This document shows, in pieces, positions 5,352 to 45,664 of a stretch of 64,000 nt of DNA. How positions within the stretch are numbered: position 1 is the first letter of the stretch; every line of letters begins with the position of its first letter. Under the pieces are notes generated by a model. It saw only the letters and a program-made list of their open reading frames with translations. It had not been told where the DNA came from and did not search any database. A program made the translations under genes and the position numbers. The DNA is from Norana najaformis (lineage: Eukaryota; Annelida; Clitellata; Crassiclitellata; Hormogastridae): contig OZ029914.1 in assembly GCA_964023275.1 (NCBI GenBank), positions 17,444,049 through 17,508,048 of the forward strand. The letters run 5' to 3'.

Positions 5352-8300
5352 GTACGTCTTTCTGTGCTCATTCTGTTTTCATCTTAACACGGCGACTATC
5401 CGTGCTTATTTTATAGCGCATTTATTTCAGTTGGTTAAGATTTTAATACATAAGTTGAAAGAACGCTTTCGCAAAAACTGAAGTTCTGTTCGGTGAAGCT
5501 GTATGGACGGTATTAAACTCAAAAGTTAGAAAATGGTCCTGTTGGATAGACGTTCAGTCAGCGTACGGACTGCTGCGTGACTTAGAGTCACTGTCCTGCA
5601 TATTCTAATTAAGCCTCTTTTGTTGAATATACGCATAGTAACTCATCTTTTTGCACAGGTTTACAGTTCTGTTGATTTGCTGTACAAATCACCAAAGCCC
5701 TAGTGTTCTATGCTGTAGTTAGCCCCATGATTCTTTTTCCTACCCGTGTTTGTGCTTTCCTCGTAATTGCAAATGACTTAGGGGTCTAAAGATCTTTAGA
5801 TATTCCTAAGCTGCACTTGTGTGCAATTGTCAGTTGCATTTTAGTTGATGTGTATATGTAGTTTGAATCATTTATAAAGCTGTCACTCGTTTGCCAGTTG
5901 CAAAAATTTTGTTATTTCAAAATGACTGACAGATTTAGTGCCATACTATTTTAGTAATGATATTAGTTACCGAAAATGATACCAGTAACTTCTATGGCAC
6001 TGTTATACGATTTACTATATGGTTCTACCAATTTCACATAAAAACTCAGCTGAAAGTCAAGCTGATTTCTAGAAGCAGAAAAAGGTAAGGTATTGCTTAG
6101 GTTATCCGTAGTTTTAAGTGTCCTTATAAATGTAGTTAATGTATGAATCGCTTAAATTTCTCAGTGCTGTACCAAATATGAGTCAAGTGGACCAGCTTAT
6201 TACCAGCACTGAAACTATCAAATCTTCCAGAGCCAGGTTGTTGGGTCACTTGCAGTGACATTAATCACAGATGGTGATGTCAAAGATCTTAGAGTATACT
6301 CAGATACGACACTCTATTCATCCTAATTTCCAAGGCCCATACTTTATTAAATACAAATAACAGCCTTTTTCATGAGTTTCTGCTCGAGCTCGTCAGTTTG
6401 CCCTTTTCGCAGTTTTGCAGGCACCTGCAGTCTATCTTATTTGACAGTGGTTTCACTGGTCTGGGACTGGAGCACCCTGATGAGTTTATTCTTGAAGTGG
6501 TGGTTTATAAATGTCAAGTTACAGTTACAGTTACAAATCGCCTGCTGGCATTGCAACTGACACAGTTGTGAGCCCAATCAGCAAGGTTGTATTATTTTTT
6601 AAAGAGCCCCAACGAATGTGGCTGTATCATCCGACCCTAACTTAAGGTGGCTGCTTTGCTTTCTTGACCACCACACACGTGAGTTACACAGCAAAGATAG
6701 GGAGTGTCATATCTTAGTGTACTCTAGATCTCTGATGCAAGCCTAACATATAAGATGATCTACAATTTGAAATTCTCCAATTCTTACAAAGGTCTTTAAA
6801 ATGAAAGACTTCCGAATGACTGGCTTTACATTTAATAAAACCATGTCCAATGTAGGCTTTCAAAATTAATGCAAATAAAGATCTTATGGTACACTTAGAT
6901 ATTACACTCAATTCATCATAAGGTCCAAGGCCATTGCCTTATAAAATGCCAACCGCATGGTGGCTCTGCAAAGTTATGGCCTAATCTGCAAGGTCATATT
7001 ATTTAAAGTGGCCCAATAAATGTGGCCTTATCATCTATAGTACCTTCTGCTAGGTGACGCGGCTGTTTCGCTCTGTTGACCACAACACATGCAAGTTACA
7101 CACTGAACAAAAACTGTGTCATTTCTTTGTGTACTCTTAAGATCTTTTTACTACTATTTGGACAGCCTTTCCTTGCAATTCAGTTGGCAACTCTGGCTAA
7201 ATTATTTTATGGTAAAAATTTACTTTTTTTGCTTCATTGTAGAAATTTGAAAAGGCAAGTTTGGATTTGAATTGTAACTGATTAAGGTACTTGGTCATTT
7301 CAGATCCAGTCTTACCAGTTAAGTCAGCCTTCAGAAGATCAAGTCGTTGTCCTGAAAAATTCTGATTGGCAGTTTCATAAACTTGTGGAGAATCTTGATC
7401 ATGCATTTCTCTATGGGTGAGTTCAATTTCTCTATGGGTGAGTTCAATTATCTGTGGGTAAGTTCAATTTCTCTATGAGTGAGTTCAATTTCACTGTCAG
7501 TGAGTTCAGTTTCTCTATGGGTGGATTCGATTTTGCTGTGGGTGAGTTCAGCTTCTCTAGGGGTGAATACCATTCTATTATTGTCTAGTACCATTTCTCT
7601 ATGGATAAACACCATTCCTCAACTTTTCAGATTGCCACAATCTGATTCCTCTCTTTCACCAACCGGAAATGTTCACTACACATTCTGCTCAGTTTGCATC
7701 ACTCGGTCTCTTTGATTTTACAAATGTAAACATTGACCTGGTAGTGAAACTGAACCAACAACCCTCGTGCAGGTTTGAGCACCAGCGGTTTATGTAGCAG
7801 AGCTGTCATGTGGTGCTGAGAAGATGCTAGATTTACATTTACAATAGTCTGGGTCAGGTCAGGTCAGGTCAGTTCAGGTCAGGTCATTTATTACTTGCTC
7901 ATGTGGACAATATTAATGGAGTTAGGTGCAACTTTTACATGCATCTATGTCAACAATGATCTTCTTAGTTATGGGTCTTTGTTCTTACAGCTGAACTGAC
8001 ATTAAACTTAATGAAGTGAAGAATCATCCTTGTAATAAACATATAACTTAAGAAAGTGCAATATGTATACACCAGAAATCCTCACCACAGTGGTAGAAAA
8101 AGATCACAGCCTATTTCAGACAAAATGGGAGCATATCAAGGATGTATCCTACCTGTCACCATACCTGTTCATTGTATTCAACCTAGATTTTAGAAGCAGT
8201 AGTGGCACCAAAGCAGATATCAAGGTAAATAGAGATCTGGTGAATAATCTTCAATTATCACATGACATTGGCATCTGGTTGCAAATCAGCATGAAATTAT

Positions 8301-14300: not shown

Positions 14301-17300
14301 CAAATCAGAATGCCTACTCGTATTTGTCTGTGGTGCAAAGATTATTATGCAATGCAGGGCTGATTATGAGTTATACTTATAAAAAGTTTTATTTCTCTTT
14401 CTTGTCTGAGGTCCTATCTCGTTATCATACTGGCCTGTTACCATGCTGGTTTCTTACGCAGCTCTTGGTAAATATGCATAGTCCAGGAATTACGTATATT
14501 GCACAACCTGTAACAGTGGTTGCTGACAACCGCTGACCTCACATGCCTGGAGGTGATTCTTTGTGTGTTAGATGCTCTCTTTGTCTGTATGCCTGTGAAG
14601 CTTGCTCTGAATCACACAATGCTCTGTTCATTTATATAGCATGATCTCCAACCCTGTTATATACTTGAAGTTTGCCAAATTCCTCTTCTGTTGTGTTATT
14701 CTGTTGTTGTTTATACTTCTTGCTTTTTCTCGTAATTGATTCAATATGTTCCATTTAGTGTAACATCACATAAGGTTTTGGTCAACAATATGATAGCATT
14801 TCAGAGGTATTGTCTTGCTACCCAGTTCAGCTTTAGTCAGATTAAATTATTATTATTCTGCATTTGTTAAGCACCGCTATCTAGCAACTAAGCATCAGTG
14901 ATGAACCTGAACAATTGTGAGCGAAGGACTTGCTCGAGGTTTTTACGTAGTAACCGTCTCAGGGTAAGCTCGGACCCATACTCACTATGTTACAAGCTGA
15001 GTGCTCTAACCATTTAGCTGCTGTGCCCACAAATAATGATGTGTAAGTTTGCAAATGCAAAGCCAACTTGTAAATACTCTGATACTAACGATGATTTTTT
15101 CCAGGATGTCCAGTACCTTGATCTGTGCAGCCATCTCAAAGTACGAACAGACAGTCAAGAAGAGGAAGAAGATGATTTGTCTCTCTGCAGCATGATCAGT
15201 TCTCAGTCACAGGTATCTCTCGTTATGTCTCATTCTCTGTGTGCACTTATATTTCTGTCATTTCTCTGATGTCACTAGGTCTAAACTAAAGATGCTTCTC
15301 TTTCAACTTGCTTATCCACCGTAGCCTGGCTTCTGGTTTCTTTGACCTGTGTGAATTCGATCCAGCTTCTCTAACGACTTATGATTTTGGATTGTGATTT
15401 TGACATGAAGCAACCATCGGCTGATACCTTGGGCATTATGATAACGGCACTATAGAAGTCTAGATTATATTAAATTAGATTTTTCTGTGCTTTTCCATAA
15501 GTAACATTTGTTGTCAAAGATTATAGAAACTAGACAACGAGATCTGATCACAAAATGCACTTAGCTGTTATTTATAATAGTTAGGTATAGTTTACAACGC
15601 ATCCATTTATTATATGTGGTGGTTAGTTGATAAAGTTATTCATCAACTAATGACCTACTTTGATTACATGCCAAGTATAATAGTTAAACATTTTTATATT
15701 ATGCCAATTCATAATAATTGGTGTTAAGCTCGTGTGGTATCCATAAACGTCTCTATTGCTGCTGTCAGTGCTAATGCTGTAATGCTGCTATCATAAAACA
15801 CCAGATATCACAAGATAATGGCTGTTGTGGACCTTTTGCTAATTGAAGGAACTTGTGAAAAGGTTGTCTTTTTGCAGTGGTAATTGGAATTGTCAATTTA
15901 TGTAGCAACACTTTGATAGAAACTTCTCAGAGATGCTCAACATGTTGTCATGTTTGCACCTCACTTTCAAGACTGTAACAAATAGAGGCTTGTGATAAAA
16001 TTAGTGAAGTAAGTAAGTAAACGAGACATTTGTTAACATGCCATGTGTCCATCGGCTGAGCGAGGAATCGTAGGTGAGTGAATACCTTGCCTTACCTACC
16101 ATTTATTTCAGTTTCAGATTTGTGTTGTCTTTAAAGACATATGTCTACTCTATTATTTGCAGTGCTCATCCATGGAAGAGTCAAATCATGCACGTCTAAC
16201 GATTTCGCCACTGTCCCTTCTTAGTAATTTAATTAAGCCTCTGACTTCCAAGGCAACAGCTTCATCGTCTCTCATCTTGGAAGAAACTGAAGAAGAGAAG
16301 AAACTGCGAATAGAAAGCTTTGCCAACACAAGTGTCGTGCCTCAAGTCCTGCCGTCGCCAGAAGACATGCCAGAAGTCACAGTCGACCCTGAAGTTGAAG
16401 TCATTCACGTGAAGCCAAAGCGTCATCATCCAAGGAGGAAAGATCATCGTTCCCAGAAGACATCTTCTGCTCCTGCTTCGGATAATGTCTCGCTAATTTC
16501 GGTCGATTCTTCAGCGTCACTTCTTTCTCCGATCAGTTCAGAATCATCAGGCTATCGGTCGGTACCTGAAGACAACCCCTCTAATCATTGTGGCGATGAG
16601 GGAATTAACATCCCTGGTTTAATGACTACACAGTCGGAAGAAACTGTGATCGAGAGCAACAGTTTGCAGAAAATCGAATCTTCGCACAAGCAAACAGAAG
16701 AACTGGAAGAAAAGTTATCGCATGATGAAAGATTGCGACGAATTCTTGAGGACAATCCAGTTGAGAAGCAAGAAGTGTGTTTCAGTCGGACAATTGAGTG
16801 GAAATCCAGCACTGAACTGTCTCCACCAAAAACAACAAACATGTTGTCCTCAGATAAAACAACAGACATGTTGTGTCTAAGAAAGACACCAGACATGCAA
16901 CTGTCATCTGTGGCAACTTCACTCCCAAATTCCAGTTCTCCTGAACATTTGAATGTTTGTCTTGATGTAGCTGAACATCCCTTAACAGAAGATGCTGTTG
17001 CTGAAGATGCTCTGGTTGTTTCAGTGGAAGAGCCCTCTATTTATGACGATGTTTCTCAAAAGAAGTGGCCAGAAGTTGCAAAGCATTCTTCAGAAATGGG
17101 GGACGTTGCCATGTCAGCTGCTTCAACTGATCCGGGGTCGCTAGAGGTTGATTTACGTGCAGTGGAAACCCAGCATAATACTGAATCCATGGCAGTAGTG
17201 TCCACGGAGGCTAAAGCAAGCCAAGAAACTTACAGTGTAGCAGAAACAAAGCTTCCAAAAACGACAAGTGTCTTTCAGTTAGACAGAAGACATGCGGCCG

Positions 17301-20300
17301 ACATTGAGTATGTGATCACTCCTATGTTATCAGAATCGTGTATCTTAAATAGAGTTGTTTCCATATATTCTGCTTATAATGTTTCTACTCCATAATATTC
17401 TGCTTATAATGTTATCACTGCATAATATTCTCCTTATAATGTTACTCTGCATAATATTCTCCTTTTAATGTTATTACTCCATAATATTCTCCTTATAATG
17501 TTGCTACTCCATAATATTCTCCTTATAATGTTATTACTCCATAATAGTCTCCTTATAATGTTGCTACTGCATAATATTCTCCTTATAATGTTATTACTCC
17601 ATAATATTCTCCTTATAATGTTGCTACTGCATAATAGTCTCCTTATAATGTTATTACTCCATAATAGTCTTGAAATTTTTAAGTTGACTTCCCTAAGATA
17701 CCAGTCGTGGGAAATGCTAACAAGTCTATTCCCAACAGGTGGTCTCTTTTCTCTGCTGGAGTCACCAACATTAAAAACAACTTGTTTGTCCTTCTGATAG
17801 CCATGTTATTATTTCTGCATTTATTAAGAGCCACTGTCTAATGACTAAGCATCAATCGATGGCACTGAGCAACTGTGAGCGAAGGACTTGCTCAAGGTCC
17901 CTACACAGTAACTGTCTGAGGGGAGGCGCAAACCTTTACTCTCTGTGTTACAAGCCAAATGCTGCTTAATATTATTAATTAGTGTAATTAGCTATGGAGT
18001 ATTGTTAATTACATTACATATTTGCATTGCAACATTACTGTGTTGCCATGGTTTCAGTGCTCTAACTTATGCATAGTAGATTATTTTTTCAAACTGTTCC
18101 AGGGTTGACAATAATCTGATGGTGGTTTTAATGCTCGAGATTTTCCTTCATGAAGACGAGAATCTCTTCAAGGTTTGATGTTGCATTTGTCCCTCTCTGT
18201 CTGTCTGCATTTCATTTATCCAGTTAGTTTGATCTGTTCTTTTAATGTTTCTTCTATTCTTTCTTTGCTCTGCTTCATTTCAGTTATGTCTGGTTTGTTT
18301 GGAGTAATAATGGTTACTCTGTTTAAAAATGTGTTTGCTTGATTTCCACATCAATTGAGATCATATTCTTAAGTATTATTAGTTATTTTTGTTTTATTTT
18401 TTTTAATGCTCCAAATTATATCCAGTTACAAAGCATGTAGCACATATTTGTAATTTGGACACGATAGGGAGACTGTGAGGGAACCAAAGTCCTGCTAAGT
18501 AGGGCCACCTAATTTCAGTGTGTGATCATTTGATGATGGCAGAGCTGTAGTCAGCTTATTTATGCTATGTGTATTGAACTTCAATTTTTGTATACATCTG
18601 ATGCTGGAAATTTTACTTCTGTAATGCTCATGTTCCTACACGTGTGACTTCAAGGTTTGATTATATTGTTTCTTTAGATGTTTCGAACTTGCCAAGGGCA
18701 CACGGACGGCGAAATCTGTGTGACATACGTTGTAATAACAAGTCATTCCTTGTACTTGTTGAAGCCAAGCTGCAAGCCTAACAAATTCATCCGTGAAGTG
18801 GCTATCAGCTATAAGGAACTTGACTATGTCTCGGTAAGTAGATTGGTCCACTTTGAAATGCAGTCTGAGTTAGGCTACTAGTCTTGTGTCTTGCATCATC
18901 TTTTCTTATTCGGGATAACTAACTCTGTCTTTCCTGCATGGGAAAGGCTATCTTGCAACAAGAACTACTTCAGTCTGGTCACTTTCCATTTGGTCATTCG
19001 AACGAGAAAGACGTAACAAATAATTACCCTAGTCTGCCTTCTGTGGTGCTGATATCTTAACTACAAGGATTCAAATAACAGCGTCCTAAATCTATGTGCT
19101 ACTATGCTCACAATGTGTGTTGTTAGTCTGGTAAAAGAGTGAAAGACTCCTATGAGAGATGAGCTTTTGGGATCTTGAATCACTCCGCAATGAGTCTGCA
19201 TTAGAATGAGGTTGTGTTGTAGAACGGAAATGAACTTGGGATACATGCTATGACTCCATTACATTAGAATTCCCATGTTTAAATGGTGACTGAGAGTGAC
19301 TTGAAATGTCTTGGCATTGTGAATTCATGCAGCTGAAGAATTGCCATTACTTTTAAAAACGGTAATGACAGTTCCTCCAATAATGCAGTACAGCATGATT
19401 TAACGCCAGAAAGTGTTTTTTGTTCTGCGTGTATGTTGTATGGTATTGTTTTGTATTGTATTGCATATTAAAAGTTTATCTTGCTGTTGATGTACTTCAT
19501 ATTGTCTGATATTCCACAGATCAGCCTTAATCACCAAATTCTTCACATCGTTTGCCACATCAGGCACAATCAGTTCTGGCTTACAACGGGAGATGAGGCG
19601 CTTACTAGGTAATTTGCCAAACTAGTTGCTAAATATGTCTAAAGTGTAAAATCTTCTGCGTATGTATGTATCTGATCATTTATATTACACATTTTTAGAA
19701 ACTCTCAAAGGGGTTGAAATAAGGATATCTAACAAATCTAACTAGCTCTGACTTAAGATAAATTGAAGATGTTTCTTGAGCTGTCTGTGGCAGAACAGTA
19801 CATATTTTTGGATATTAAATCCCACTGCAGGATTTGGGATCCCATATCCTGTAGTTGGACGCAGTGGTGAGGCTTGTTTCCATTTCTTAGGTCCAGAGCT
19901 AGTAGGGGAAGTATCCCAAAGTCCAGGACTTGTGCTGCTGTTATTTATCATAAGATGCAGGTAGCCATGTTTCAGCCCTTTTGTGAGGTTCTTGAAAGGC
20001 ACTATATAAATGTTCTAATGTTCTCATACATACATACATATATATATGCATAATTAAATACCTATGTGTCTTTGTGTCTGCCTCTTTGGCTTGCTTATAT
20101 TCATTGTCATCCTTTGTTGTCTTTATGCTGCTGTTTGTCACACTCTGTCGCTCTCTGTTGACTTGTCCATTTTTTTCTACCTCCATATTTGTGTTCATTA
20201 TCATCTGTGGCATGCACCTGTCTGGAATGTTGCCATTCCCATAATGAGTAGCCATCTGTCTCTATTCTGTGCTCGTCTCCAGGCCATATGTAATCTTTGT

Positions 20301-23300
20301 GTAGCTGCCTGTCTAATTGTGCCATTTGTGTGACTTTCTGTCTCCTTAGGGCTAACTCATTTATTATTTTTTTCTGTATCTCTGCTGTTGATTTACTACA
20401 TGCTATAATTGTCTCCTCTAGGCTTATTGTGTCTCATCTGGAGCAAGCTGTCCTCCGTGCTTGTGAAAACGACTCTTCCACCCTTTCGCCACTGACCGTA
20501 CTGACCGATGCTATGGCTCAGAAGATCTCCATAGCTAAATGGGTGTCGGAAGAGACTGGCCAACAGGTACAGTATATATCTCGTCATACCCTGTAGTTAT
20601 GCTGAGGTAAGGTGATCACGCATTTAGTAGCTGTTTTTATAATATGTTAGATTAGGTATTTGTAATGTATGCAGCATAAATGAAGTGTAATGAAGATTTA
20701 TTTAGCACCTTGTGCAGGCCTTTCAAACTGTGCTCTGAAATTGTCTTAAAGTGTCAAGTTTTTGTACAATTAGCCAAAAATGCAGAAATGTGAAGTAGTA
20801 ATAATGAAAGTAATACTGTTTATTGCTAAGTATTAATAACATTAATTTTACAGTGCAGCTCTTGCTTAATATACAGTAGGACAGTGCCTCCCGGTTCTGT
20901 TTACTTAACCAAAGCTACTGAGATAAGGCAGTGGAAGCCAACACCAGGCCCTGCCTAGCAGGCAGTAGAAGTCATTGAGTGGGTACTATTATCTAGACAG
21001 ATGTTGGCCTGTCATGGACATGATAGTTTTGAAACTTAACCTCGTGTAGGTCAAGATAATATAATTACACATAGAAATAAGTGGAAGATATTTTTAGAAT
21101 TGGGACTAAACCAAAAATCAACCAGTCAGATTGGATATTTAAATCACTTATATAAATGAACCCAGTATGGCTAGGCACGGCATTTCTGACCACAAAGTTC
21201 GGTGAATGTTTGGGGAATTAACATGTGATGAAGGCAGTTTCAGTGTTTCTGACAATGAAAATCTGTCTGTTGGATCAAGTGACAAATGTGAAGTGGCTTT
21301 AACTGAAGAACATTCCTACATCGAAACCAAGTTCGGAGCTAGCATTTGATATGTGCTGTCTGAACAGGAAAGTCGGTCAGACTGAATGGATGCTGATAAT
21401 TTAGACCAGATAGATTGAACTAAAGAGGCATTAGATTTTCCTGTTTATACTCTGACTTGTCCATTTACAGGCATCTGTGGTGGACTAGCCCATGAGGCAC
21501 AGTTTGTGGACTTTATCACTCAGTTTTTAGATGACAGTTTTTTGATAATTACGCATAGAAATAAGTGGAAGATATCTAGCTGAACAGACGAGTCTGTTTG
21601 CTGAGCTGAGTAGGTCAGCTTCACAGTAGGCAAGTAAACAAAATGGAACCCTCCTTCTTTAGAGATGTGTGCATTTTGTAAGCTATAACATCCTGATGTG
21701 CTCCTAGATCCAAACGCACGTGTACGACTACACATCAACTGATTCACCACTCAGTGATCCCTAGTTCGTAATCGTAATCAAAAACTTATAAAGCGCCACT
21801 TCAAGATAAAACTCATCAGAGGCTCTCCCGGCCCAATTTCGCATGACTAATGGGGAATAACACGGTCTTCAAACGCTTGCGGAAAAGAGAGGGAGGAAGA
21901 GAGAGGAATTCCCACCTAAGGTCACCAGGCAGGTTGTTCCATGAGGCAGACAAGTGATCAGTTCATTGCGTTAAACTGGTACCTCCGCTTGACTGTGTGT
22001 GATATAGATTATAATAAAATTATTGCTATTACAGAGCCTCTTTGGAAATGTATGAATATCCGAAAGTACGCTGTGTAAACCAATTAATTGTTTTACTATG
22101 AAGAAATATCTTATCAGTTCCCTAAGTTCAAGGTTACATTGCTAATTGTCCTCACAAAACTGTTCAGTCTAGTCCGCTGACAAAGAGTAATCATTCCAGG
22201 AAGCTTCAGTCGTATTTGTTTCAAAGGGTGGATGGGAAGTGGAAATAAATGCTAAAGAATGATGTTTACTTCATGTCTTTAGATCAAAAACTGATAGAGA
22301 TTTAAGAAGTTAAAAATTGTTTAACTTATAGGGCATTTTACAGTAAAATCAATCGCCATCTGGGCCTAGGCAAAAATAATTCTCTTGGCTTTAATGGGTT
22401 AATGTGTTACTCTCACTAACACATGGTGTACAGATATGCAGTTAAGTTTTAGTCAACTTTGTTCATAAGAAAATGAAGTCCTAGAAAGGTTTAGGTTGCA
22501 GCAAATATGTGCAGACAATAATCAGTTCAGTAGTCGCTGGCATATGCTTAAGATTGGAACCAGCGTCTGTTGTACTTGCAACACATGATATGTATTAGAG
22601 CCTCGATTCCAGGAAGTTCCAGGGAAGCAGACTCTGTTGTAGACCTAGTTGCTCACAGTTTTATAGTAAAGGTAGCCCTCGAGACTGTGTATTAGAGCCA
22701 GTAATGATGCCTTTTGTAGATACGTGCACATGAGCAGTGAATTAGAAGAGAGTGGAATAAAGATGTCAAATGCCTATAGATACTCCTTGTTTAGTGAAGT
22801 CAGAGTATTTTATAGGACAGAATTTTGTTTGAGATATGTGTTACATTTTTATGGAACTGCTTAGATATTTCTGCATAGTAAAACAGTTAAGTGGTTTACA
22901 CAGCATACTTTCAGATATTCATATATTTCCAAAGATGCTCTGTAACAATAATTTTATTATAACCTATATCACTTTTATTGTAAAAAAAACAATAGCAATA
23001 ATTTTATAGATAACAATAATTTTATTATTATCTATAGCACTTTTATTGTAAAAAAGATACTGACATTGGTTTTATCATGTTATATATTTGTTAAAAAATT
23101 TGATCTGACTAGTTACAAGTATGTAGACCTGTAGCAGCATTAAGGTCCACCATTTCTAGAGCCTGCAGAACAACTCTTCGTGAACTGGCGTGGTCTCTTT
23201 TTGACTTGGCTTCCTAAGTACTTTCTGCCTCAGCCTTACCTGGATGTCTTTTGTTTGACCTCCCTGGATTTTGACGTGGCACTAAAACTCGCCCAACAAC

Positions 23301-26300
23301 CTTGCTTTTGCCAATTGGATGTGATGAAATGCCCATATTAGCTGGCCTCTGTGATCCAATTTTTATGTGATTCTGAGAAATTATTCCCACATGAAAGTGC
23401 ATGAAAAGTAGGAAAATTCTGTACCTATCTTGGTCAGAAATTATTTTGTCAACGTTTCTTATATAGAAATTGCTATTTTCCAGCTGAATTAACCTGTTAC
23501 AATTACTTCTGTTACAATTTAGCGGCAGGACATTGCCTTGCTGAACTATGCACTGGTTCACTGGGAGGATTCTGAGGCAATTGCTAATGGGGACTTGAAG
23601 CTGAGTCAAGACAGTCTTGAGGGCTACCTCTACTATAAAACTGTGACCAACAAGGTCTACAACATAGTCCGCTTCCCTGGAACTGGAACTTCCTGGAATC
23701 GAGGCTACTTTGTACTTGAGTGAGTACATTCAGTTTTGTTCAAGGTGTCATAGTGAAATTTGAGGAAATTTTGTTTTCTTGATTTTTAATGTCATGCAGG
23801 GTAATTGAATTCTTAGTAAAGTAAGGTAAGCACGATAACCGATTGGATAGAATGCTTGGTTTGTAATGCAGAGAGTATGAGTTTGAGCCTCTCCTAAGAA
23901 AGTTACTGTGTAGGGACCTTGACCTTGAGTGTAGGGACCTTTACTCATCATTGTCATCATCGTCACTCAGCGCCATCACTTAGTCAATAGACAGTGGCAC
24001 TTAATAAATACAGAAACAAAAATATACAATCAAGTAGTCATTTATTACGAGGCTTCATAGACTGGTATCAAAGTGCATCAACTGTATCGATAATATGTGT
24101 GCCGTTTGTTGTGATGTTGTGATTGTGCTCAGTAGCAACCATCAGTTGATGCCACGTGCATTACGATAATAGCGCTGTGGAAGTTTATGGAATTGATTAG
24201 ATTAGAATAGATTCAAGCCTTGGCTTCATCATGCTGCTTCCACAAATGCTTGGGTTAGGTTCTAATGCGTCATGTGAAATTCACACACTGTTGTCGAGCT
24301 GTGTGAAGGTTGGAAAAGGTTGTACTGGTGTTGGATTGCAGTTGGATTGCTTCTCTTGTTCCTTAGTTTGAATTGTTGGTTGGCGTGCTTTTAGAATTAT
24401 TCTGATTTTCACATGTTTAGTCAGGGCTGCTGATCTGATGCTTTCTCACATTATGCCTTTTGCATATCTTTTTCAGGCATGGTATTCTGCATCAGTATGC
24501 GGATAAGAGATGTTCTGGTACACCTACGAAGTCTGTTTCTCTTATGTAAGTGATTTTAAGTCGATAACTGTTACTGTTTTTACTGAACAATTATTTAGTT
24601 CCTGAGTAGGTGATGTCATTTGAATAATTAATGCAATGTTGCAGGAGCTACAAACAGATATCTTTCTAGAATTAGAGATTCTTTGATTGTTTCCTGTGTG
24701 AAAACTGGTTGTAGCAGCTCTTTGTAAAGTATTCCTTGACCACAGTTGAACTTTGGCTTATCTGCCGTGGCTGCCTCTCTGTTTCAGTAAACCGACTTCT
24801 GGATGCGGACCTGACTGTGACTTGAGTTTGGTGAGCGATTGGGTGGTGCCTTGTGCATTAGACACCGGCACAATAGAAGTTTATATTTAATTAATAAAAT
24901 AGCTGTTAATGAAAGTCAGTGATTACATATCTGTGCCCATATACATACCTCCTTACATTTATACCAGTACATGATGTAGATACTCGCATATGTCAAAAAA
25001 TTTAGGACAGTTTTGAAAGTCCGAGTTTGAGTGGTTGCCACATGTGAGGGTCAAGTCTAGATCGCGAGATATGTTCTCTGGACTTAAACTTGGTTCACAG
25101 ACTTTTGTTGGTCTGTCGGTAATGTGTTTGGTCAATGATCATACGGTCGCGTGTTTGACTCTGTGTAATGATCCTGGGCAGGTTGTTTGCACACATGTGC
25201 CTCTGTCAACATGCAGCATAATTTGGTACCGGCATAAGCTGGGAAGTAAACGGTAGGTCCTGTGATGCACTGGCCTGTGTCCAGGTCCTTGGGATTTATC
25301 CATTGTCGGCTTGAGGGCCTAGGAAAGGAGATGAGTACCTCCCCTATGTGTCAGTTGTGAGGTATGGGACACCCTTTACTCTTTTACATAGAATTTTCCC
25401 CTCTCCAAGGTAAAAAATTTATGGGTCGACTTATACATGACATCTGCTTGAAGATGAGTGAGTATCTGTGGTATGTACATACATGCAAGTTGGTCAATCT
25501 GGCCAATAAGATGAGTTTTTTCAACTTTTAACTACTTTTACAGCACCTCCCAACTACCGACTTTTTGTTGCATTGTTTTTGCAGTCCAGAGCAGTGTCAT
25601 GGCTGCCGTCGATGTCCCACTGCCGACCGAAAGCACTGCTTTGAAATTCTTCTTGCCGATGGATCGAGTCTTGAGTTGGCTGCATCAAGCGATGCAGAAG
25701 TTCAGAATTGGCTCATCTGTCTCTGCCAGGCAACATTGGATCAAACGGGGACTGATGTAAGGGGCTAGTTTCTTTCTCAGCTGGAGATTTGGGCAAGGAG
25801 CTTTCTCTTAGCTCAGATGGAGATTAGCAAGAGGGGTCTTCTCTTAGCTCAGATGGAGATTAGCAAGAGGGGTCTTCTCTTAGCTCGGATGGAGATTGGC
25901 ATAGAGGGTTTTCTCTTTTCTCAGGTGGAGATTGTCATAAGGGGTTTTCTTATTTTCACAATTAGTAATTCAAATGACATTGCCTTGCTACTTATTGCTG
26001 GCTGTTAGCTTTCTTTGCATCACTTACTGTCTAACACATAACCGCATGCAGTATTTCGAAAACAAAAGTTACTTATGCGATTTTTAATCTGTTGCTTCTT
26101 CTGTAGAATCCTTCATTTGGTTGTGTTACGTGTTGTACTGTCGTGACTCAGAGCCACGTCTTTATGTGTCATGAAGACTTGCAGACAAACTTCCTCCGGA
26201 CTCTTGGTAGTCAGCCACTGACCAGCCTCGTGCAAATACATACGGATGCAGATATTATGATGTACTGTGTTCTAGTGAGTAAGCCTGTGTTCATTCAGCA

Positions 26301-28327
26301 GTGATGTTAGGCACTGCTATAATTATTATTATCATCGTCATTGTCATCATCATCATCGTCGTCGTCGTCATCATCATCGTTATATTGCATTTTTATTAAA
26401 TTATTTAAATAATGTCAGAAGCGCAATCTCCAGAGGGCTCAGTGCGTGATGGCTATGTTCTGGAGAGGCAGTTGGCATTTCCTCTTTGAACAGCCACCGA
26501 AATCTTCTGGAATAACTATTATAATTATTATTATTATTGTTATCGTTATTGTTATCGCTATCATTATCATCATGCATTTATTACATGCGCCAGGTCAGTA
26601 AATTTGAATCTGAGGCACAAAGCAGTTGTGAGTGAAAGACTTGCTCAAGGTCCCTTCACAGTAACCATCTAAGGAGTGGCTCAAACCCGTACTCTCCACA
26701 TTACAAGCCGAGTGCTCTATCCAGTCGACTACCGTATGCCGCAGGCAGTTTGGCCTTGGCCAGGAGGCTAACTTTCTTGCAAAGTCTGGCATCCTGATAT
26801 CTGGTCTCAGCTTTATTTCTTCCATTTACCATCTCTTTGCTGCATTTGGAGCTCATTCTTCAGCTTATCTGCCACCAGCAGACTATATCTGTGTGAGGCA
26901 CTTAAAAGGCGCTATGCCAAGTTTCTACATACATACATACATATCTGAATTGTAAATGCTCGTTATTGGTAAACATCTTTTGTCATGGCTGCATTTACTG
27001 TAAATGGCTGCACAAGACTGTATTCAGTCTTGAAAGCTCTTAATTTAGACTTTTTTTCTAATTTTTCAAATCAAAATCAGGTCTTTGGAGAGCAGCAGAA
27101 GGTGCAAAAGCAGCAGGATAAATGGTGCTTATACTTCAACTCCACTGCGGAGCAACAGAGGTTCTTGACAGCTGTACTCGACGCTTGCTGCGAAATTAAA
27201 CAGGTTCCACTCTTTCACTGATAGTAGTCATGAGATTAATTTCTAACCATGAAGGCATCAGACACTTACCACGGCACTGTCTTTGGTGTTAAAGAGTCCT
27301 AAGTGTGAAGGCGTCAGACACTTACTATATCACTGTCTTTGGTGTTAAAGTGTCTAAATGTGAAGGCATCAGACACTTACTATAGCACTGTCTTTGGTGT
27401 TAAGGCATTTAAGTGTGAAGGCATCAGACATATTATAACACTGTTTGTGAGAGCTATATCAAGAACCATGTCCTTGACAATATTATGTCAGAATTCTTGT
27501 TATAATGGAGTCTGTTGTAAGGAGTTTCTGGTGTGAGTTAAGGCAGTCGTCATTTTACGATATTACGCACCACTACCAACGTTAGTCAGAGGCATCATCC
27601 TGGGATTGAAGGGTATTTGAACTGAAATAAAACGAGAAACAGCAATCCAACAACCTGACAACCTTTGCTTAGAAATCATGAGGTTGCCCTAATAGCAGTC
27701 GAAAATGATTTGCCAATCTGCCTCTCTTCCACCCAACATTGGTTAAATTTGTAATTTATCTTTTTCTCACAAAGTGCCTGCTATGAAACGAAATGGGGAG
27801 CTTTTCTAACACACGAAGAATGTCCAGTTTCTTTATATTCCCACCATATTTATTCGCAGTGCTATGCACCACCATGTACTTTGTATGTAAAGCAGTTGGA
27901 TAGTAAGTATACAGGAATTTTTTGAATGTATCTTATTACTTTTACTTTAGTGGCAGCCCTTTTTTTGTTTCTGCATACCTCTTGCATATTATAGTTATTT
28001 TATTTGAGATGTAACATACATGTTTTACATACTGCTAAACAACCTTCATGTTGTATATACACTCAAGGAATGATGGAGTCAGAAGTGTACTCATCAGTTT
28101 TGCTTGTAAGCCTTAGTTTTACTAGTAAGCTTTAATTTGCTAAATAAGCTTTAAGTTGGCTAATAAGTATTTCTGATAAACTTTAGTTTTGTTAGTAATC
28201 TTGTTCTGTTTCATAGTCTGTACCACAGATGTTGCCGGTTGATGGTAAAATGTCAGCAAGATGCAAGAATGGATTAGAGAAATTGAACCAACTGCACAGA
28301 GGAAACGGAGGAGCAGGAGCAGTCTAG
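5262..28327 (+). CDS. PLEKHM2: PLEKHM2 (SKIP) orthologue, complete, 17 exons
   Basis: Adaptor that binds ARL8 on lysosomes through its RUN domain and, in vertebrates, recruits kinesin-1 for outward lysosome transport. Exons: 5262-5351, 7304-7416, 8758-8867, 10494-10618, 12733-12795, 15105-15212, 16163-17307, 18103-18172, 18678-18833, 19520-19608, 20422-20566, 23523-23719, 24477-24545, 25585-25756, 26107-26274, 27081-27203, 28217-28327. They sum to 3054 bases: 1017 residues plus stop, against about 1019 in human. All phases agree. RUN lies at about residues 16-167, a low-complexity linker at 168-585, the conserved region before PH at about 585-738, PH at about 765-875 and a conserved C-terminal region after it. 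An in-frame TAG abuts the start ATG, so 5262 is the earliest start unless a 5' coding exon was missed. The two kinesin-light-chain W-acidic motifs of vertebrates are not seen in the linker. Confidence 0.96.
5352..7303 (+). other. PLEKHM2: PLEKHM2 intron 1
   Basis: About 1.95 kb without coding signal. It contains a diverged tandem duplication of roughly 410-base period: 6575-6735 and 6985-7140 align over their length, sharing GCAAGGT and GAATGTGGC-like blocks and the GACCAC-ACAC-AGTTACACA block. Confidence 0.7.
7304..7416 (+). CDS. PLEKHM2: PLEKHM2 exon 2 (RUN)
   Basis: Acceptor ATTTCAG; 113 bases encoding IQSYQLSQPSEDQ...LVENLDHAFLYG, aligned with human LCEHLDHALLYG. Ends phase 2 at GTGAGT (7417). 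The end of this exon and its donor are the first unit of a minisatellite. Confidence 0.95.
7404..7615. repeat. 21-bp minisatellite made of the exon 2 splice donor
   Basis: Roughly ten 21-base units, each equal to the last bases of exon 2 (CTCTATGG) plus the donor GTGAGTTCAA, decaying to the right. Donor-like hexamers fall at 7417, 7438, 7458 (GTAAGT), 7479, 7500, 7521 (GTGGAT), 7542 and 7563 (GTGAAT). Reading past the first donor meets TGA at once, so use of later donors would insert a stop. Confidence 0.92.
7853..7887. repeat. CAGGT pentanucleotide repeat
   Basis: Seven consecutive TCAGG units, one altered. Confidence 0.9.
8050..8600 (+). mobile_element. Decayed LINE reverse-transcriptase fragment
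   Basis: Translated pieces resemble the RT palm region: AYQGCIL followed after a frame change by SPYLFIVFN (the family's GxxQGC-LSPYLF motif), then LQEIM...CRRFDLLL...NTKEM, matching the region before the catalytic aspartates. Stops and at least one frameshift break it. It lies in PLEKHM2 intron 2. Confidence 0.45.
8758..8867 (+). CDS. PLEKHM2: PLEKHM2 exon 3 (RUN)
   Basis: Acceptor TTTTCCAG; encodes LRHFTNGYWVIVQEFTH and the start of NVGR, aligned with human GYWVLVVHFTRRE...NLGR. Donor GTAAGT at 8868, phase 1. Confidence 0.95.
9107..9338. repeat. Irregular 50-70-bp minisatellite in intron 3
   Basis: Four degenerate copies, each with TTTAAGTCAGTTTT and GAACATTATCAAG-like blocks, starting about 240 bases after the exon 3 donor. 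Confidence 0.85.
9880..9966. repeat. Degenerate ~20-bp tandem repeat
   Basis: About four loose copies of a GGTGAAATGT-xx-ACTGG unit in intron 3. Confidence 0.5.
10494..10618 (+). CDS. PLEKHM2: PLEKHM2 exon 4 (RUN core)
   Basis: Acceptor CTGTAG; encodes SRAWLYLALSDHLLESYI and RKHYVKEALVLDEQ, almost identical to human SRAWLYLALNENSLESYL and HKYYVKNALV. Donor GTATGT at 10619, phase 0. This is the best-conserved exon and fixes the gene identity. Confidence 0.97.
10642..12174. repeat. 17-bp direct repeats flanking an inserted block
   Basis: GTGAAACTAAGAAACTA occurs at 10642-10658 and again at 12158-12174. The sequence between holds a pogo-like transposase relic and starts with a TA followed by CAGTGAAAGTCCGG, which looks like a pogo-type terminus. 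Confidence 0.6.
11240..11762 (-). mobile_element. Pogo/Tigger-like transposase relic, internally deleted
   Basis: On the minus strand an ATG at 11762 opens a psq-type helix-turn-helix (SVQEKLAAIDCVHSGETQ, ISKDLGINKSMLMGWL). It continues in another frame into a CENP-B-like second domain (GLERKCVRYFDKL, QAQAMKFGN). A short acidic tail ending at 11240 follows directly, so the DDE region is missing. There is one frameshift between the two helix-turn-helix parts plus stops. Confidence 0.6.
12325..12412. repeat. ATGT/ACAT microsatellite
   Basis: Tetranucleotide run of TATG and GCATG units. Confidence 0.9.
12733..12795 (+). CDS. PLEKHM2: PLEKHM2 exon 5 (RUN end)
   Basis: Acceptor TTTTCAG; 21 codons, LLLTLSSGLDLISFELEV, aligned with human LFLTLVSGLEFIRFELDL. 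Donor GTGAGT, phase 0. Confidence 0.95.
12796..14850 (+). other. PLEKHM2: PLEKHM2 intron 5, first part: GC-richer unknown block
   Basis: No exon seen. A locally GC-richer block at about 13000-13480 has short open frames on both strands but no recognisable protein; it may be an old insertion. Confidence 0.4.
14860..15028 (-). mobile_element. SINE-A (tRNA-headed), copy a
   Basis: Reverse copy: the tRNA-like head lies at the right, then GACGGTTACT, the central GTCCTTCGCTCACAATTG-like block, and a tail ending in TAACAAATGCAG. Shares all landmarks with the copies at 17816, 23829, 26573, 37831, 45463, 51866 and 59504. Confidence 0.75.
15105..15212 (+). CDS. PLEKHM2: PLEKHM2 exon 6
   Basis: Acceptor TTTTTCCAG; 36 codons beginning DVQYLDLCSHLK (human DAPYLDLAPYMP) and ending with an acidic run and DLSLCSMISSQ (human DSLSLNSFNSV). 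Donor GTATCT, phase 0. Confidence 0.9.
16163..17307 (+). CDS. PLEKHM2: PLEKHM2 exon 7, long linker
   Basis: Acceptor ATTTGCAG; 1145 bases. Ser/Glu-rich, mostly unconserved. EVEVIHVKPKRHHPRRKDHR corresponds to the basic TELEVIRVTKKKK segment of human PLEKHM2, and SPISSESSGYRS to a conserved Ser patch. The only two tryptophans are in IEWKSS and KKWPEV. Ends phase 2 at GA|GTATGT; the open frame runs on into the minisatellite, but homology resumes only in exon 8. Confidence 0.92.
17363..17670. repeat. 30-bp minisatellite after exon 7
   Basis: About ten copies of a 30-base unit with TAATATTCTCC and TTATAATGTT, starting 55 bases past the exon 7 donor. A reading frame through it is a by-product of the 30-base period. 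Confidence 0.95.
17816..17966 (-). mobile_element. SINE-A, copy b
   Basis: Reverse copy in intron 7 with CTGCATTTATTAAGAG, GAGCAACTGTGAGCGAAGG, ACTTGCTCAAGGTCCC and a partly lost head. Confidence 0.75.
18103..18172 (+). CDS. PLEKHM2: PLEKHM2 exon 8
   Basis: Acceptor GTTCCAG; 70 bases encoding VDNNLMVVLMLEIF and EDENLFK, aligned with human VDNNHLLLLMIHVF and NEEQLFK. Donor GTTTGA, phase 0. Confidence 0.95.
18678..18833 (+). CDS. PLEKHM2: PLEKHM2 exon 9
   Basis: Acceptor TTTCTTTAG; 52 codons ending VAISYKELDYVS (human AVSYNELDYVS). Donor GTAAGT, phase 0. Confidence 0.96.
19520..19608 (+). CDS. PLEKHM2: PLEKHM2 exon 10
   Basis: Acceptor TTCCACAG; encodes HQILHIVCHIRHNQFWLTT, aligned with human QQTVKLVCTNRRKQFLLDT. 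Donor at 19609, phase 2. Confidence 0.95.
19735..20020 (+). mobile_element. Possible LINE/SINE tail in intron 10
   Basis: Ends in AAGGCACTATATAAATGTTC followed by short repeats, the style of an L2-like 3' tail. No second copy of the body was found in the window. Confidence 0.35.
20422..20566 (+). CDS. PLEKHM2: PLEKHM2 exon 11
   Basis: Acceptor CTCCTCTAG; encodes LTVLTDAMAQKISIAKWV, aligned with human PSILTDATMEKLALAKFV. Donor GTACAG, phase 0. Confidence 0.95.
21059..21576. repeat. 31-bp direct repeats, 485 bp apart, in intron 11
   Basis: CATAGAAATAAGTGGAAGAT with flanking ATAATTAC occurs at about 21061-21092 and 21545-21576. The block between has a short open piece on the + strand but no recognised protein. 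Confidence 0.7.
21768..21965 (-). mobile_element. LINE 3' end fragment in intron 11
   Basis: The minus strand encodes ASWNNLPGDLRWEFLSLP and SLFRKRLKTVLF, the typical C-terminus of a LINE ORF2, followed by GGCGCTTTATAAG and GATTACGATTACG. Confidence 0.7.
22002..22122. repeat. Inverted repeat, left arm
   Basis: About 120 bases whose reverse complement, at roughly 85-90 percent identity by eye, is at 22853-22971. Shared blocks include ATAATAAAATTATTG, GCTGTGTAAACC and TGTTTTACTATG. Confidence 0.9.
22599..22691 (-). pseudogene. PLEKHM2: Inverted fragment of PLEKHM2 exon 12
   Basis: The reverse complement aligns with exon 12 bases 23611-23703 over about 93 positions, with a handful of substitutions and a 6-base gap where the exon has GGAACT twice. 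Matching blocks include ACTATAAAACTGTGA, AGGTCTACAACA and TTCCTGGAATCGAGGCT. TGTATTAGAGCC lies on both sides (22591-22602 and 22688-22699). It has no splice sites of its own. Confidence 0.93.
22853..22971. repeat. Inverted repeat, right arm
   Basis: Partner of 22002-22122. Just outside it, AACAATAATTTTATTAT plus CACTTTTATTGTAAAAAA occurs twice in direct orientation, about 69 bases apart. Confidence 0.9.
23523..23719 (+). CDS. PLEKHM2: PLEKHM2 exon 12 (PH start)
   Basis: Acceptor CAATTTAG; 197 bases encoding NYALVHWEDSEA (human RFYGLVHWEDPTD), LEGYLYYKT and WNRGYFVLE, the first strands of the PH domain. Donor GTGAGT, phase 2. An inverted partial copy lies about 900 bases upstream. Confidence 0.96.
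23829..24012 (+). mobile_element. SINE-A, copy c
   Basis: Forward copy: A-box-like AACCGATTGGATAG, B-box-like GTTTGAGCCTC, central block with an internal duplication of TAGGGACCTTGA, and a tail TTAATAAATAC. Confidence 0.8.
24090..24215 (+). repeat. Repeat D tail
   Basis: GCAACCATCAGTTGATGCC, then GCGCTGTGGAAGTTTA and ATTAGATTAGA-type ends. Related stretches occur at 15390-15475 and 24790-24900. Probably a third, poorly preserved SINE family. Confidence 0.4.
24477..24545 (+). CDS. PLEKHM2: PLEKHM2 exon 13 (PH)
   Basis: Acceptor TTTTTCAG; encodes HGILHQYADKR (human NGILYQYPDRT). Donor GTAAGT, phase 2. Confidence 0.95.
25585..25756 (+). CDS. PLEKHM2: PLEKHM2 exon 14 (PH end)
   Basis: Acceptor TTTTTGCAG; encodes PEQCHGCRRCPTADRKHCFE and ASSDAEVQNWLICLCQA, aligned with human GEQCGGCRRANTTDRPHAF and AESEAEMAEWMQHLCQA. 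The W of the final helix is kept. Donor GTAAGG, phase 0. Confidence 0.97.
25775..25954. repeat. 36-bp minisatellite after exon 14
   Basis: Five copies of a 36-base unit with CAGATGGAGATTAGCAAG and CTTCTCTTAG, starting 18 bases past the exon 14 donor. Confidence 0.95.
26107..26274 (+). CDS. PLEKHM2: PLEKHM2 exon 15
   Basis: Acceptor TTCTGTAG; encodes VFMCHEDLQTNFLRTLGS (human LFTCHEDCQTSFFRSLGT) and ends MMYCVL. Donor GTGAGT, phase 0. Confidence 0.96.
26325..26580. repeat. ATC/GTC and TTA trinucleotide microsatellites
   Basis: Two trinucleotide runs (26325-26400 and 26515-26580) around a short unique stretch. Confidence 0.85.
26573..26740 (-). mobile_element. SINE-A, copy d
   Basis: Reverse copy with CATGCATTTATTACATGCGCC, GAAAGACTTGCTCAAGG and the head ACAAGCCGAGTGCTCTATCC. 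Confidence 0.8.
27081..27203 (+). CDS. PLEKHM2: PLEKHM2 exon 16
   Basis: Acceptor AAAATCAG; 41 codons with DKWCLYFNSTAEQQRFLTAV, aligned with human PWVIYLSCTSELDRLLSAL. Donor GTTCCA, phase 0. Confidence 0.93.
27251..27445. repeat. 55-bp minisatellite after exon 16
   Basis: Three full 55-56-base units and one partial, each with GGCATCAGACACTTAC and CTGTCTTTGGTGTTAA, starting 47 bases past the exon 16 donor. Confidence 0.95.
28217..28327 (+). CDS. PLEKHM2: PLEKHM2 exon 17 (last)
   Basis: Acceptor TTTCATAG; 36 codons and TAG (28325-28327). SVPQMLPVDGK and a basic helix replace the human QVDLPHTAIQEASNKKK end; similarity is weak, but phase and position fit. Confidence 0.8.
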   Translation, partial: SVPQMLPVDGKMSARCKNGLEKLNQLHRGNGGAGAV

Positions 28328-34061: not shown

Positions 34062-35930
34062 ATGGATTATTCGAAAAATAAACGGTCTAGTGTGAAGATG
34101 TTGCGTGAATCAGATGATGAAACTTTCGATGACAGTGACAATGATAGGGACAGTAACTATGAAATGAGTGGTGATGTGATAGTTGATACATTTGATGGAG
34201 GTGAAGACAGTGATGCATCTGAACAGTACGATTCATCACCAGTCCTCGAAGCCGCTGGTACGTCTGATGATAAGTCTGATACGTCTTATGATGAGTCTGA
34301 ATTGTCTGATGATGTATCAGATACGTCTGATGACGAGTCTGATGAAGTCCTGAGCAGTCCTCCACCAGCTCCACCCGCTGCCACAGCAGCTTCTACAGCT
34401 GCAGTTCAAGCAGCACAAGATACCTGGGAACCAGTGGATGTAAACTATAACCCAAATGTGGGTTTTACTTTCACTGCAAAACCAGGTGTAATGTGTGACT
34501 CTTTGACTGCTGACAGTTTACCGGTGGAGTTTTTCAAATGCTTCGTTACTGACGAGATTGTTGCCCTTTTGGTGACTGAGACTAACAGATATGCCAAACA
34601 GTTTCTTGCCAGTGCAATTCTGCCACCGAAAAGCAGAGCTCGAAGATGGGTACCCACAGACTCCATGGAAATGCAGAAATTTTTGGGAATGATGTTGATG
34701 ATGGGCATTGTCAAGAAGCCACATATTGAAGACTACTGGTCCACAGATCCTATTCTTGCTACACCAGTTTTCAACAAGACAATGCCACGTGACAGATTTG
34801 AATTGCTGCTAAAGTTCTGGCATTTCTGTAACAACGAGGAGCAGGTTGAAGGTGACCGTTTGTTCAAGCTAACGGCAATTCATGAGGCACTGGTGTCTCG
34901 GTTCCAGGCTGCATATACACCAGAAAGAGAGCTGTCTATTGATGAATCGATGGTTCTTTGGAGAGGACAGCTCTTATTCAGACAATATATACCAGGGAAA
35001 AGACACAAGTATGGAGTAAGGTTATACATGCTCTGCGAATCAAGTGGATACGTGTGGAACTTGATGGTTTACTGTGGAAAATCTGACTCCATACCTGGGT
35101 TAGGTCATGCTGAAAGTGTTGTCCTGAAACTGATGGAAAAGAGGCTCGACCAAGGTTATGCACTGTACACTGATAATTTCTACACCAGTGTTCCTCTTGC
35201 AAAAGCTTTACTTAGCAGGAAAACACTGCTGTGTGGAACTTTGAGGCAGAACACAAAGCATCTACCTGCTGCAGTTACAGCTGCAAACCTACAAAATGGT
35301 CAGCAAATTGTTCGTCGAAATGGCAACATCATAGTACTGAAGTGGAAGGACAAGAGGGACGTTATGATGTTGTCTACTCATCATGCAGGGCATATTACAG
35401 ACAGTCGTAAAAGGAACCGAAATGGCCAGTTTGTCAAAAAGCCAGAATGCATTTTCGACTATAATGACTTCATGTGTGGTGTTGACCGCATGGACCAACT
35501 TTTATCTTATTACACACCACTGAGAAAGTCACTGAAATGGTACAGAAAGGTGGTCCTGCAGATGATTGACATGGCACTAGCAAATGCATACCTTCTCCAC
35601 AAGAAGCTTGGAGGAACTAGGCGCCATATCTGGTTCAGGACAAACGTTATTCGGTCGCTGCTGGGAAGCCAAGATCGACCAGAAGCAGCCGTACCATCAG
35701 TGGCCTTCAAGCACCACAAGTCTTCAGACCTGTCCAGACTCAGTGGACAGCACTATCCGGATGTCATCCCAGCAACTGCAACCAAAGTCGGACCTTGCAG
35801 GAAGTGTGTTGTTTGTAGGAAGCAAGGAAGGCGCAAAGAAACGCGTTATTTTTGTGAAACCTGCCCCTCACAGCCTGCACTGTGTGTGGTAGCATGTTTC
35901 AAACAGTTTCACACTGAATGTGATTTCTAG
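34062..35930 (+). CDS. PiggyBac transposase, open reading frame whole
   Basis: A 622-residue cut-and-paste transposase without stops. An acidic Ser/Asp-rich N-terminus (1-115) is followed by the DDE_Tnp_1_7 fold. The three catalytic aspartates are visible in LSIDESMVLWRG, ALYTDNFYTS and CGVDRMDQLLSYY. A C-terminal Cys-rich cross-brace (CRKCVVCRKQGRR, YFCETC, CFKQFH) ends the protein. Length is usual for the family. It lies on the strand opposite to the zinc-finger gene, in that gene's probable intron. It could be a young transposon or a domesticated PGBD-type gene; TTAA-flanked inverted ends were not firmly identified. Confidence 0.93.
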   Translation: MDYSKNKRSSVKMLRESDDETFDDSDNDRDSNYEMSGDVIVDTFDGGEDSDASEQYDSSPVLEAAGTSDDKSDTSYDESELSDDVSDTSDDESDEVLSSPPPAPPAATAASTAAVQAAQDTWEPVDVNYNPNVGFTFTAKPGVMCDSLTADSLPVEFFKCFVTDEIVALLVTETNRYAKQFLASAILPPKSRARRWVPTDSMEMQKFLGMMLMMGIVKKPHIEDYWSTDPILATPVFNKTMPRDRFELLLKFWHFCNNEEQVEGDRLFKLTAIHEALVSRFQAAYTPERELSIDESMVLWRGQLLFRQYIPGKRHKYGVRLYMLCESSGYVWNLMVYCGKSDSIPGLGHAESVVLKLMEKRLDQGYALYTDNFYTSVPLAKALLSRKTLLCGTLRQNTKHLPAAVTAANLQNGQQIVRRNGNIIVLKWKDKRDVMMLSTHHAGHITDSRKRNRNGQFVKKPECIFDYNDFMCGVDRMDQLLSYYTPLRKSLKWYRKVVLQMIDMALANAYLLHKKLGGTRRHIWFRTNVIRSLLGSQDRPEAAVPSVAFKHHKSSDLSRLSGQHYPDVIPATATKVGPCRKCVVCRKQGRRKETRYFCETCPSQPALCVVACFKQFHTECDF

Positions 35931-37764: not shown

Positions 37765-37830
37765 TTATTATTATTATTATTATATTATTTTTATTATATT
37801 ATTATTATTACTACTACTACTATTATTACT
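37765..37830. repeat. TTA/CTA microsatellite
   Basis: Trinucleotide run. This is the empty counterpart of the transposon insertion site at 49213 in unit B. Confidence 0.9.
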
Positions 37831-37997
37831 GCATTTATTATGCAGGCAAGTTCAGTAAATCTGAATTTGAGGCATGAAGCAATTGTGAGTGAAGGACTTG
37901 CTTAAGGTCCCTACACAGTAACCGTCTAAGGGGAGGCTCGAACCTGTACTCTCCGTGTTACAAGCCGAGCACTCTATCCGATCGGCTACCATGCCCC
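37831..37997 (-). mobile_element. SINE-A, copy e
   Basis: Well-preserved reverse copy; the complement has GGTAGCCGATCGGATAGAG (A box), GGTTCGAGCCT (B box), GGGACCTTAAGCAAGTCC and TGCATAATAAATGCAG. Confidence 0.85.
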
Positions 37998-38062
37998 TAC
38001 ATGTTTTTGGTTCATCGCCCTTACAGCTTGGGCTGTCACGGATTAAAAAATCCATTGCATAC

Positions 38063-38860
38063 CTGTTTGCTGATTCCTGTGGACAGATCCTGAGGTCCAG
38101 CCAGGTTCAGAGGAGCCACTTCATCGGTAATGGCATCCCAATCGGAGCAAGATGCATTCTGGTCAATGTCCCTTGCATTCTGCAGCATCACATCAGTTAA
38201 ATGATTTGTCAGAACGTCTGTTGTTCCTGTTCGCGACTCGTTGCTGTCATCAGACGACATAAGCAATTTCGCTTTCTTCAGAACTCCGCCTCCATCATAA
38301 CTGACCTGGTCACAAGCATCAAAAGGCAAATCCTTCCCTTTGTTCACCTTGTCAATGAGTTCTTCCAGCTCGATGCACGTTAGAAGCGTACTGTGAGGCT
38401 CATCTTCATCAAACCCTTCATACTTTACATACGTATTAGCAATATCCACAATGTTTGTATTGAGGTTCTCGTCGATACTTCTGTTCATCTTTGGGTCTGG
38501 TCCATTTGGGACTGCACCAGAACAGGGTAAATCCATATCAGAACAGCCATCAATCAGAATTGGGTCAGAGTCAACTTTAATGATATCATCCTTACAGAGA
38601 AATGAGAACGGAAGGCCTTGAACCAGATCATCACAAGTTTTGCCAGATGCCTCGGTTGCTGCCAACACTGGGCTTGCAATAGTTTCTTTAATATTTATGA
38701 GAAGAACCTCAGCATTGTCTATGGTGATTCCAAGGAGTCCTTCTACACAAAACTCACTCTTGTATGCAAGTCCTGTCTTGCACAAAAGAATAATGGACTC
38801 TGTAATCAAACTTCTGAGTCGTAACTGGTCAGCTTGCAACATTGTTACGATGGACAGCAA
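38063..38860 (-). CDS. Upstream coding exon of the zinc-finger gene (inferred)
   Basis: Minus strand; acceptor TTTTTACAG at 38861, probable start ATG at 38842, donor CAG|GTATGC at 38063, phase 0. About 260 residues: a hydrophobic N-terminal part (LRSLITESIILLCKTGLA, EGLLGITIDNAEVLLINI) resembling a small structured domain, then an acidic linker (YVKYEGFDEDEP, IELEELIDKVNKGK) ending PLNLAGPQDLSTGISKQ. The PLNL motif echoes the start of the finger exon. No known domain is assigned. Linkage to 32823-33379 rests on strand, order and style; a connecting exon was not found. Confidence 0.75.
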
Positions 38861-38966
38861 CTGTAAAAATCTGAAATACAAAATGCAGTTTAAGCACAAA
38901 ATAAACTACCACAACAAAAGTTCAGTATAACAATCTCTTCGAATTATGTATTTGTCATTTTATACA

Positions 38967-39238
38967 GGGGACGTGATGGTGTAGTGGTATGGTCTGTGCC
39001 TCATTACCAGAGGGTTGCAGGTTCAAATCTGCCTCTGCATAGTGACCTTGGACAAGTTGCTCACTCACAATTGTCTGTAAGGAAGGCAACAGGAAACCAC
39101 CTCAATCATCTCATCCCAAGGTGGCATAAAGCTAGTGAACCTGCCTTTGGGCAGAGAACTCGTCAACATTTTATGTGGTGTAATGTAAATCTAATTTTAT
39201 CAGTGCCACATAAAAGCTGTGTAAGATCACCTTACTAG
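38967..39238 (+). mobile_element. SINE-B (tRNA-headed), copy 1
   Basis: Head with TGGTGTAGTGGTATGG (A box) and GCAGGTTCAAATCTGCC (B box). The body has GACCTTGGACAAGTTGCTC and CACAATTGTCTGTAAGG, the tail TGCCACATAAAAGCTGTG. The body shares its central block with SINE-A. Confidence 0.85.
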
Positions 39239-45460: not shown

Positions 45461-45462
45461 AT

Positions 45463-45627: not shown

Positions 45628-45664
45628 AAAACATTATCATTATATATATTATTATACATATATA

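Follow-up and report, generated by a model that had tools for sequence, protein, structure and literature searches.

How does the middle of an exon come to lie, reversed and between direct repeats, in an intron of its own gene? The question is raised by PLEKHM2 in the 64-kb stretch of DNA analysed here (the window), where a partial copy of one exon stands on the opposite strand upstream of that exon, with the same 12 bp on each side. Twelve base pairs is a usual size for a target-site duplication, and the original prediction named a reverse-transcribed mRNA fragment and repair filler as possible sources. It is the second of these that gains support: with a donor 922 bp away and no other match found in the assembly, the copy is probably a DNA insertion templated locally, whether by a replicative switch of template or at a staggered break. 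The kind of mutation is already known, and the locus is a new instance, ordinary in kind; a literature search brought up nothing on it among the matches listed, judged by titles and abstract openings.

Over the aligned bases 84 of 90 are identical, with six mismatches and one 6-bp gap, GGAACT being present twice in the exon and once in the copy. When the reversed stretch was aligned locally to 23401-23900 the score was 135, compared with at most 29 in 300 shuffles. The match and its orientation are thus as originally described (about 93 bases, 23611-23703, some 900 bases upstream of the exon), its extent being slightly longer and the exon lying downstream of the copy at the spacing already given. 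At both sides the match ends within the exon, with none of the extension into flanking intron by which a simple local inversion-duplication was to have been recognised. After bases common to donor and junction are discounted, the new sequence proper is 22603-22687. Given the six base differences and the gap that separate copy from donor, an assembly error is an unlikely source of the copy.

In the frame of the exon, two of the six mismatches are synonymous and four protein-changing, one of the four being a stop. Because the exon is coding, the four are assigned to the copy, where they most likely arose, resembling unconstrained decay. At one of the synonymous sites the exon reads TTG and the copy TCG, which would be compatible with the exon having lost a CpG. 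A fixed inversion of the exon itself is rejected, the exon being open and spliced in frame in place.

The donor exon, 197 bp long, is joined in frame by its splice signals to the next exon at 25585, and the end of the preceding exon was placed at 20566, where there is a donor site and the phase agrees, which puts the copy in an intron of about 2.96 kb. What was copied is the middle-to-3′ portion of the exon, ending 13 nt before the 5′ splice site. The protein from the donor exon and its successor matches the PLEKHM2 PH domain in PDB (3hw2_B, E 1.7e-12) as well as Pfam PH, both matches being confined to the part from the downstream exon; the donor exon alone has no Pfam or PDB match at E up to 1. 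The donor exon is assigned to PLEKHM2, as originally proposed, because its frame is open and its splice sites keep that frame, and, judging from the next exon, it would be the beginning of the PH domain region. Coordinates are collected in the table.

Table. Features at and around the inverted exon copy; positions are those of the window
Feature	Position	Strand	Basis or remark
Inverted partial exon copy	22599..22688	-	Alignment to donor 23611-23706
Donor stretch within exon	23611..23706	+	Alignment to copy
Left 12-bp direct repeat, TGTATTAGAGCC	22591..22602	+	Last 4 bases (AGCC) also match donor
Right 12-bp direct repeat, TGTATTAGAGCC	22688..22699	+	First base also matches donor
PLEKHM2 exon (exon 12 of the original prediction)	23523..23719	+	AG before, GTGAGT after; in frame with next exon
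Second inverted duplication, arm 1	21999..22125	-	Only partner found for arm 2 in assembly
Second inverted duplication, arm 2	22849..22972	+	11 mismatches in 124 aligned bases with arm 1
Local direct duplication, 22943-22987 and 23011-23055	22943..23055	+	3 mismatches in 45; overlaps, then follows arm 2

The flanking repeats are, as first noted, a perfect pair. TGTATTAGAGCC occurs exactly twice in the window, starting at 22591 and at 22688, and its reverse complement has zero occurrences there. When 90-bp intervals were drawn at random 20,000 times from a 264-kb stretch, 176 were flanked by a direct repeat of at least 8 bp and 41 by one of at least 12 bp; because only 41 of the 20,000 have the longer repeat, its origin by chance (about 0.2%) is unlikely here. 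Overlap with the donor amounts to 4 nt (AGCC) at the left junction, for which chance allows about 1/256 per junction, and to 1 nt at the right.

Against the 608-Mb, 17-contig assembly, a 131-bp query around the copy matched itself and the exon only, and a query from the exon matched itself and the copy only. Because the two found only each other, neither a transposon family nor a further retrocopy of the exon is indicated among the best candidates scored in a search that leaves out very common words, and membership of the copy in a transposon family is rejected. Mobile or dispersed DNA is present elsewhere in the window. An open frame of 622 aa at 34062-35930 (+) matches DDE_Tnp_1_7 (E 1.2e-94) and has a zf-Tnp_2 finger; we take it to be a piggyBac-type transposase. 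A dispersed repeat of about 160 bp, SINE-like in size, is found on both strands, directly at 17820-17980, 26573-26733, 37830-37990 and 51865-52025 (the three other direct copies being 64-83% identical to that at 26573) and inverted at 45528-45628 and 59568-59668.

The course of events that would yield this arrangement most simply is a single excursion of a growing strand. In the germ line, in replication (at a stalled or broken fork) or in break repair, a top-strand 3′ end finishing in TGTATTAGAGCC would have quit its template; its terminal AGCC would have annealed, on the opposite strand, to the GGCT that lies about 1.1 kb further along in the exon; some 85 nt of exon would then have been copied backwards; and the strand would have returned 12 bp behind its point of departure, so duplicating TGTATTAGAGCC. 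In the four-point description of such switches, point 4 is near 22591, point 1 near 22602, point 3 near 23611 and point 2 near 23706, an order of 4-1-3-2 that is consistent with one excursion and makes this a ‘4 before 1’ event. Point 2 is ahead of point 1, and therefore the switch would have gone to the other strand. The copy, the exact flanking duplication, the junction overlaps and a local donor with no other match found are observed; the order of the steps, DNA as the template and the enzymes are inferred.

In favour of local templating is first that copy and donor, 922 bp apart, found only each other in 608 Mb, and second that both an inverted and a direct duplication are present within the same 1.7 kb. 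Against it are the distance of the donor, about 1 kb, the single nucleotide shared at the return junction and the wholly exonic nature of the donor. For the last, a random 96-bp piece taken within about 1.1 kb of the site would fall wholly inside the 197-bp exon in about 5% of cases (102 of about 2016 start positions). The earlier reasoning that a lack of intron sequence speaks against a local inversion-duplication is unsound, given that 5% and a neighbouring inverted duplication that is intronic.

That neighbour brackets the insertion site. Its two arms, whose alignment has a 3-bp gap, both lie in the intron, and a query from the pair matched those two places alone in the assembly. With the exon copy and the direct duplication, it falls within 1.7 kb. 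If both of its arms are neutral, divergence is about 4.4% per lineage, and because this is near the 4-6 changes in 90 of the exon copy, the copy and the neighbouring duplications may be of similar age, a comparison that is suggestive only. A target-site-like repeat at the second inverted duplication is rejected, there being just a 6-bp TTTTAT at the edges of arm 2 (22847, 22973), which may be chance in AT-rich DNA. Nor does a hairpin as cause gain support, since the AT-rich spot at 22940-23062 has an unremarkable DNA fold energy, 89 of 250 windows being more stable.

How unusual the combination is can be judged from a survey of 264 kb, in which 98 local pairs were reduced to 20 by the repeat filter. 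Of these, five are inverted, at four places, two of which overlap the PLEKHM2 intron site; the rough chance that two of four inverted places fall within 1.7 kb is about 8%. A flanking repeat of at least 8 bp accompanies six of the 20, namely the exon copy and five of the 15 direct pairs, the latter having 2 to 130 bp between their copies. One of those five also has a 12-bp repeat, and a flanking repeat of that length is by itself not unique to the exon copy. Among the five inverted rows of the survey the exon copy alone has a flanking repeat of at least 8 bp, the second inverted duplication being without one; because the proportion is only one in five, a recurrent mechanism is not established here.

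Duplications of other kinds and sizes occur further off in the window. The segments 37821-46083 and 51856-60123 form a large recent duplication, several 300-bp blocks of which, in the 20 largest families, recur 14.04-14.06 kb apart with 98-100% identity; a 49-bp palindrome, about 90% self-complementary, is present in both halves (40978-41026 and 55037-55085). About ten head-to-tail 30-bp units at 17328-17700 overlap and then follow the end of a 437-aa open frame (16082-17395), and at 7384-7616 there are about ten tandem copies of a unit of roughly 21 bp.

Part of the credence given to local templating belongs to a route other than a replicative switch, and one that is a possibility, though hardly the leading one. 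A double-strand break with nicks 12 nt apart would have had its ends filled in, and end-joining synthesis would have copied the nearby exon, the repeat being the filled-in overhang. With this the 12-bp repeat and the 4-nt overlap are compatible, and there is precedent of a kind, staggered breaks at new introns of Daphnia being described as accompanied by insertions and by direct repeats of 4-12 bp (PMC4202315), and small tandem duplications being described as arising at overhang breaks in mouse and human cells (PMC8355091). However, this route calls for a stagger and, as a second event, for an excursion to a template 1 kb off, which is less economical than one switch. The template switch is favoured because copy and duplicated repeat are both explained by its one excursion; as the route actually taken, it is close to an even call. 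Filler at a 12-nt staggered break and a replicative switch leave an identical scar, and a single sequence cannot separate them.

An RNA template in cis is unlikely. On this view a break in the intron, in the germ line, would have left a top-strand end from which a reverse transcriptase or a repair polymerase extended along PLEKHM2 RNA, either still nascent or newly spliced. The polarity suits, in that AGCC at the top-strand 3′ end could prime on GGCU of the sense RNA, the donor is entirely exonic, and templated insertions at human breaks are described as coming disproportionately from transcribed sequence and as fewer when reverse transcriptase is inhibited (PMC5110952). Yet the copy has neither a splice junction nor a poly(A) run, the neighbouring inverted duplication is intronic, and an exon-only donor would be met about 5% of the time anyway, exon content being why the copy was noticed.

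Retroposition in trans, by which LINE-type machinery would have inserted a fragment of mature mRNA with a target-site duplication, can point to the perfection and length of the repeat (class 1 templated insertions bear duplications of at least 5 bp; PMC5110952) but is extremely improbable. Runs of six A or T are absent from the insert and its surroundings, AATAAA is absent from the insert in either direction, and inspection by eye shows no TTTT/A at the junctions. The match is confined to one exon and so without the splice-junction crossing of a processed pseudogene, the exon has no other match among the best candidates scored in the 608-Mb assembly, and for an mRNA to land by chance so close to its source gene (about 1.1 kb) has a probability near 4 in a million in 608 Mb. 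The reverse-transcribed mRNA of the original prediction is a weak option in view of the missing A or T runs, an exon matched by nothing else in that search and a donor only 922 bp away.

A question apart from origin is whether a locally templated copy, once made, was retained for a function. The duplex between copy and exon has a predicted energy of -150.2 kcal/mol, and in the minimum-energy fold of 22580-23735 all of the pairs formed by the copy (85 of 85) are with the donor, in agreement with the earlier suggestion that the pre-mRNA could fold the copy onto the exon. In this stem the exon makes up one arm, the 3′ splice site being in the loop and the 5′ splice site 13 nt beyond the stem. Paired flanking introns are the arrangement that favours circular RNA; circularisation, also suggested at the outset, is not favoured because the exon here is a stem arm and not the loop between two paired introns. 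Hiding of the exon, editing or altered inclusion through the predicted pairing is possible, and there are cases, e.g. GluA2, where intronic complementary sequences are described as directing the editing of an exon (PMC7045468). Retention because pairing with the exon steers splicing or A-to-I editing is nevertheless improbable. Any inverted copy so near pairs by construction, and the preponderance of protein-changing differences, the stop among them, most likely reflects unconstrained decay in the copy. If the pairing were nonetheless of consequence, the long duplex made by the antisense piece would expose the exon to ADAR editing or alter its inclusion.

On the reading of a locally templated DNA insertion, the locus would be a clean fossil of a transposon-free mutation that mimics a target-site duplication and the scar of retroposition. 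The caution that follows is that a direct repeat around an exon-derived insert is not in itself proof of retroposition. A single accident of this sort can also provide a gene with an antisense match to its own exon.

Among known systems, the short-range template switches described for great apes are pertinent, since those in which point 4 is before point 1 are among them, tend to show as single large insertions and, as with template switch events there generally, intronic location is enriched (PMC7954356). The PLEKHM2 copy is like them in being an inverted nearby copy between points of departure and return, and in lying in an intron. It is unlike them in scale, the model in that source expecting a fragment length of 10 within one fork, compared with 90 nt from about 1.1 kb ahead here.

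From the yeast signature of MMBIR, in which an inverted insert lies close to the sequence it was copied from and has microhomology where it joins, the exon copy has the inversion and the nearby template; of its junctions, for which 2 nt or more would be looked for, the left shares 4 nt and the right only 1 nt. The 4-nt AGCC fits the mean microhomology of 3.7 bp given for MMBIR-linked templated insertions (PMC8421209). The tool used in that source, MMBSearch, which was applied to human normal and cancer cells, has a template limit of 100 bp, whereas the distance here is 922 bp, and the perfect 12-bp flanking duplication is a further difference from the insertions described there (PMC8421209).

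With the new introns of Daphnia there is in common an insert between direct repeats of up to 12 bp; there, however, an intron arose from the insert, the source of which is for the most part given as unknown, whereas here the source is known and inverted and the site was already intronic (PMC4202315). Templated sequence insertion polymorphisms are comparable in that unique sequence is inserted once, with a duplication (class 1) or with microhomology (class 2), and different in that their donors, as described, are distant and that of the exon copy is local (PMC5110952). As characterised in the same source, poly(A) and a LINE-1 site are typical of class 1, and duplications are absent from class 2; the exon copy mixes the features of the two.
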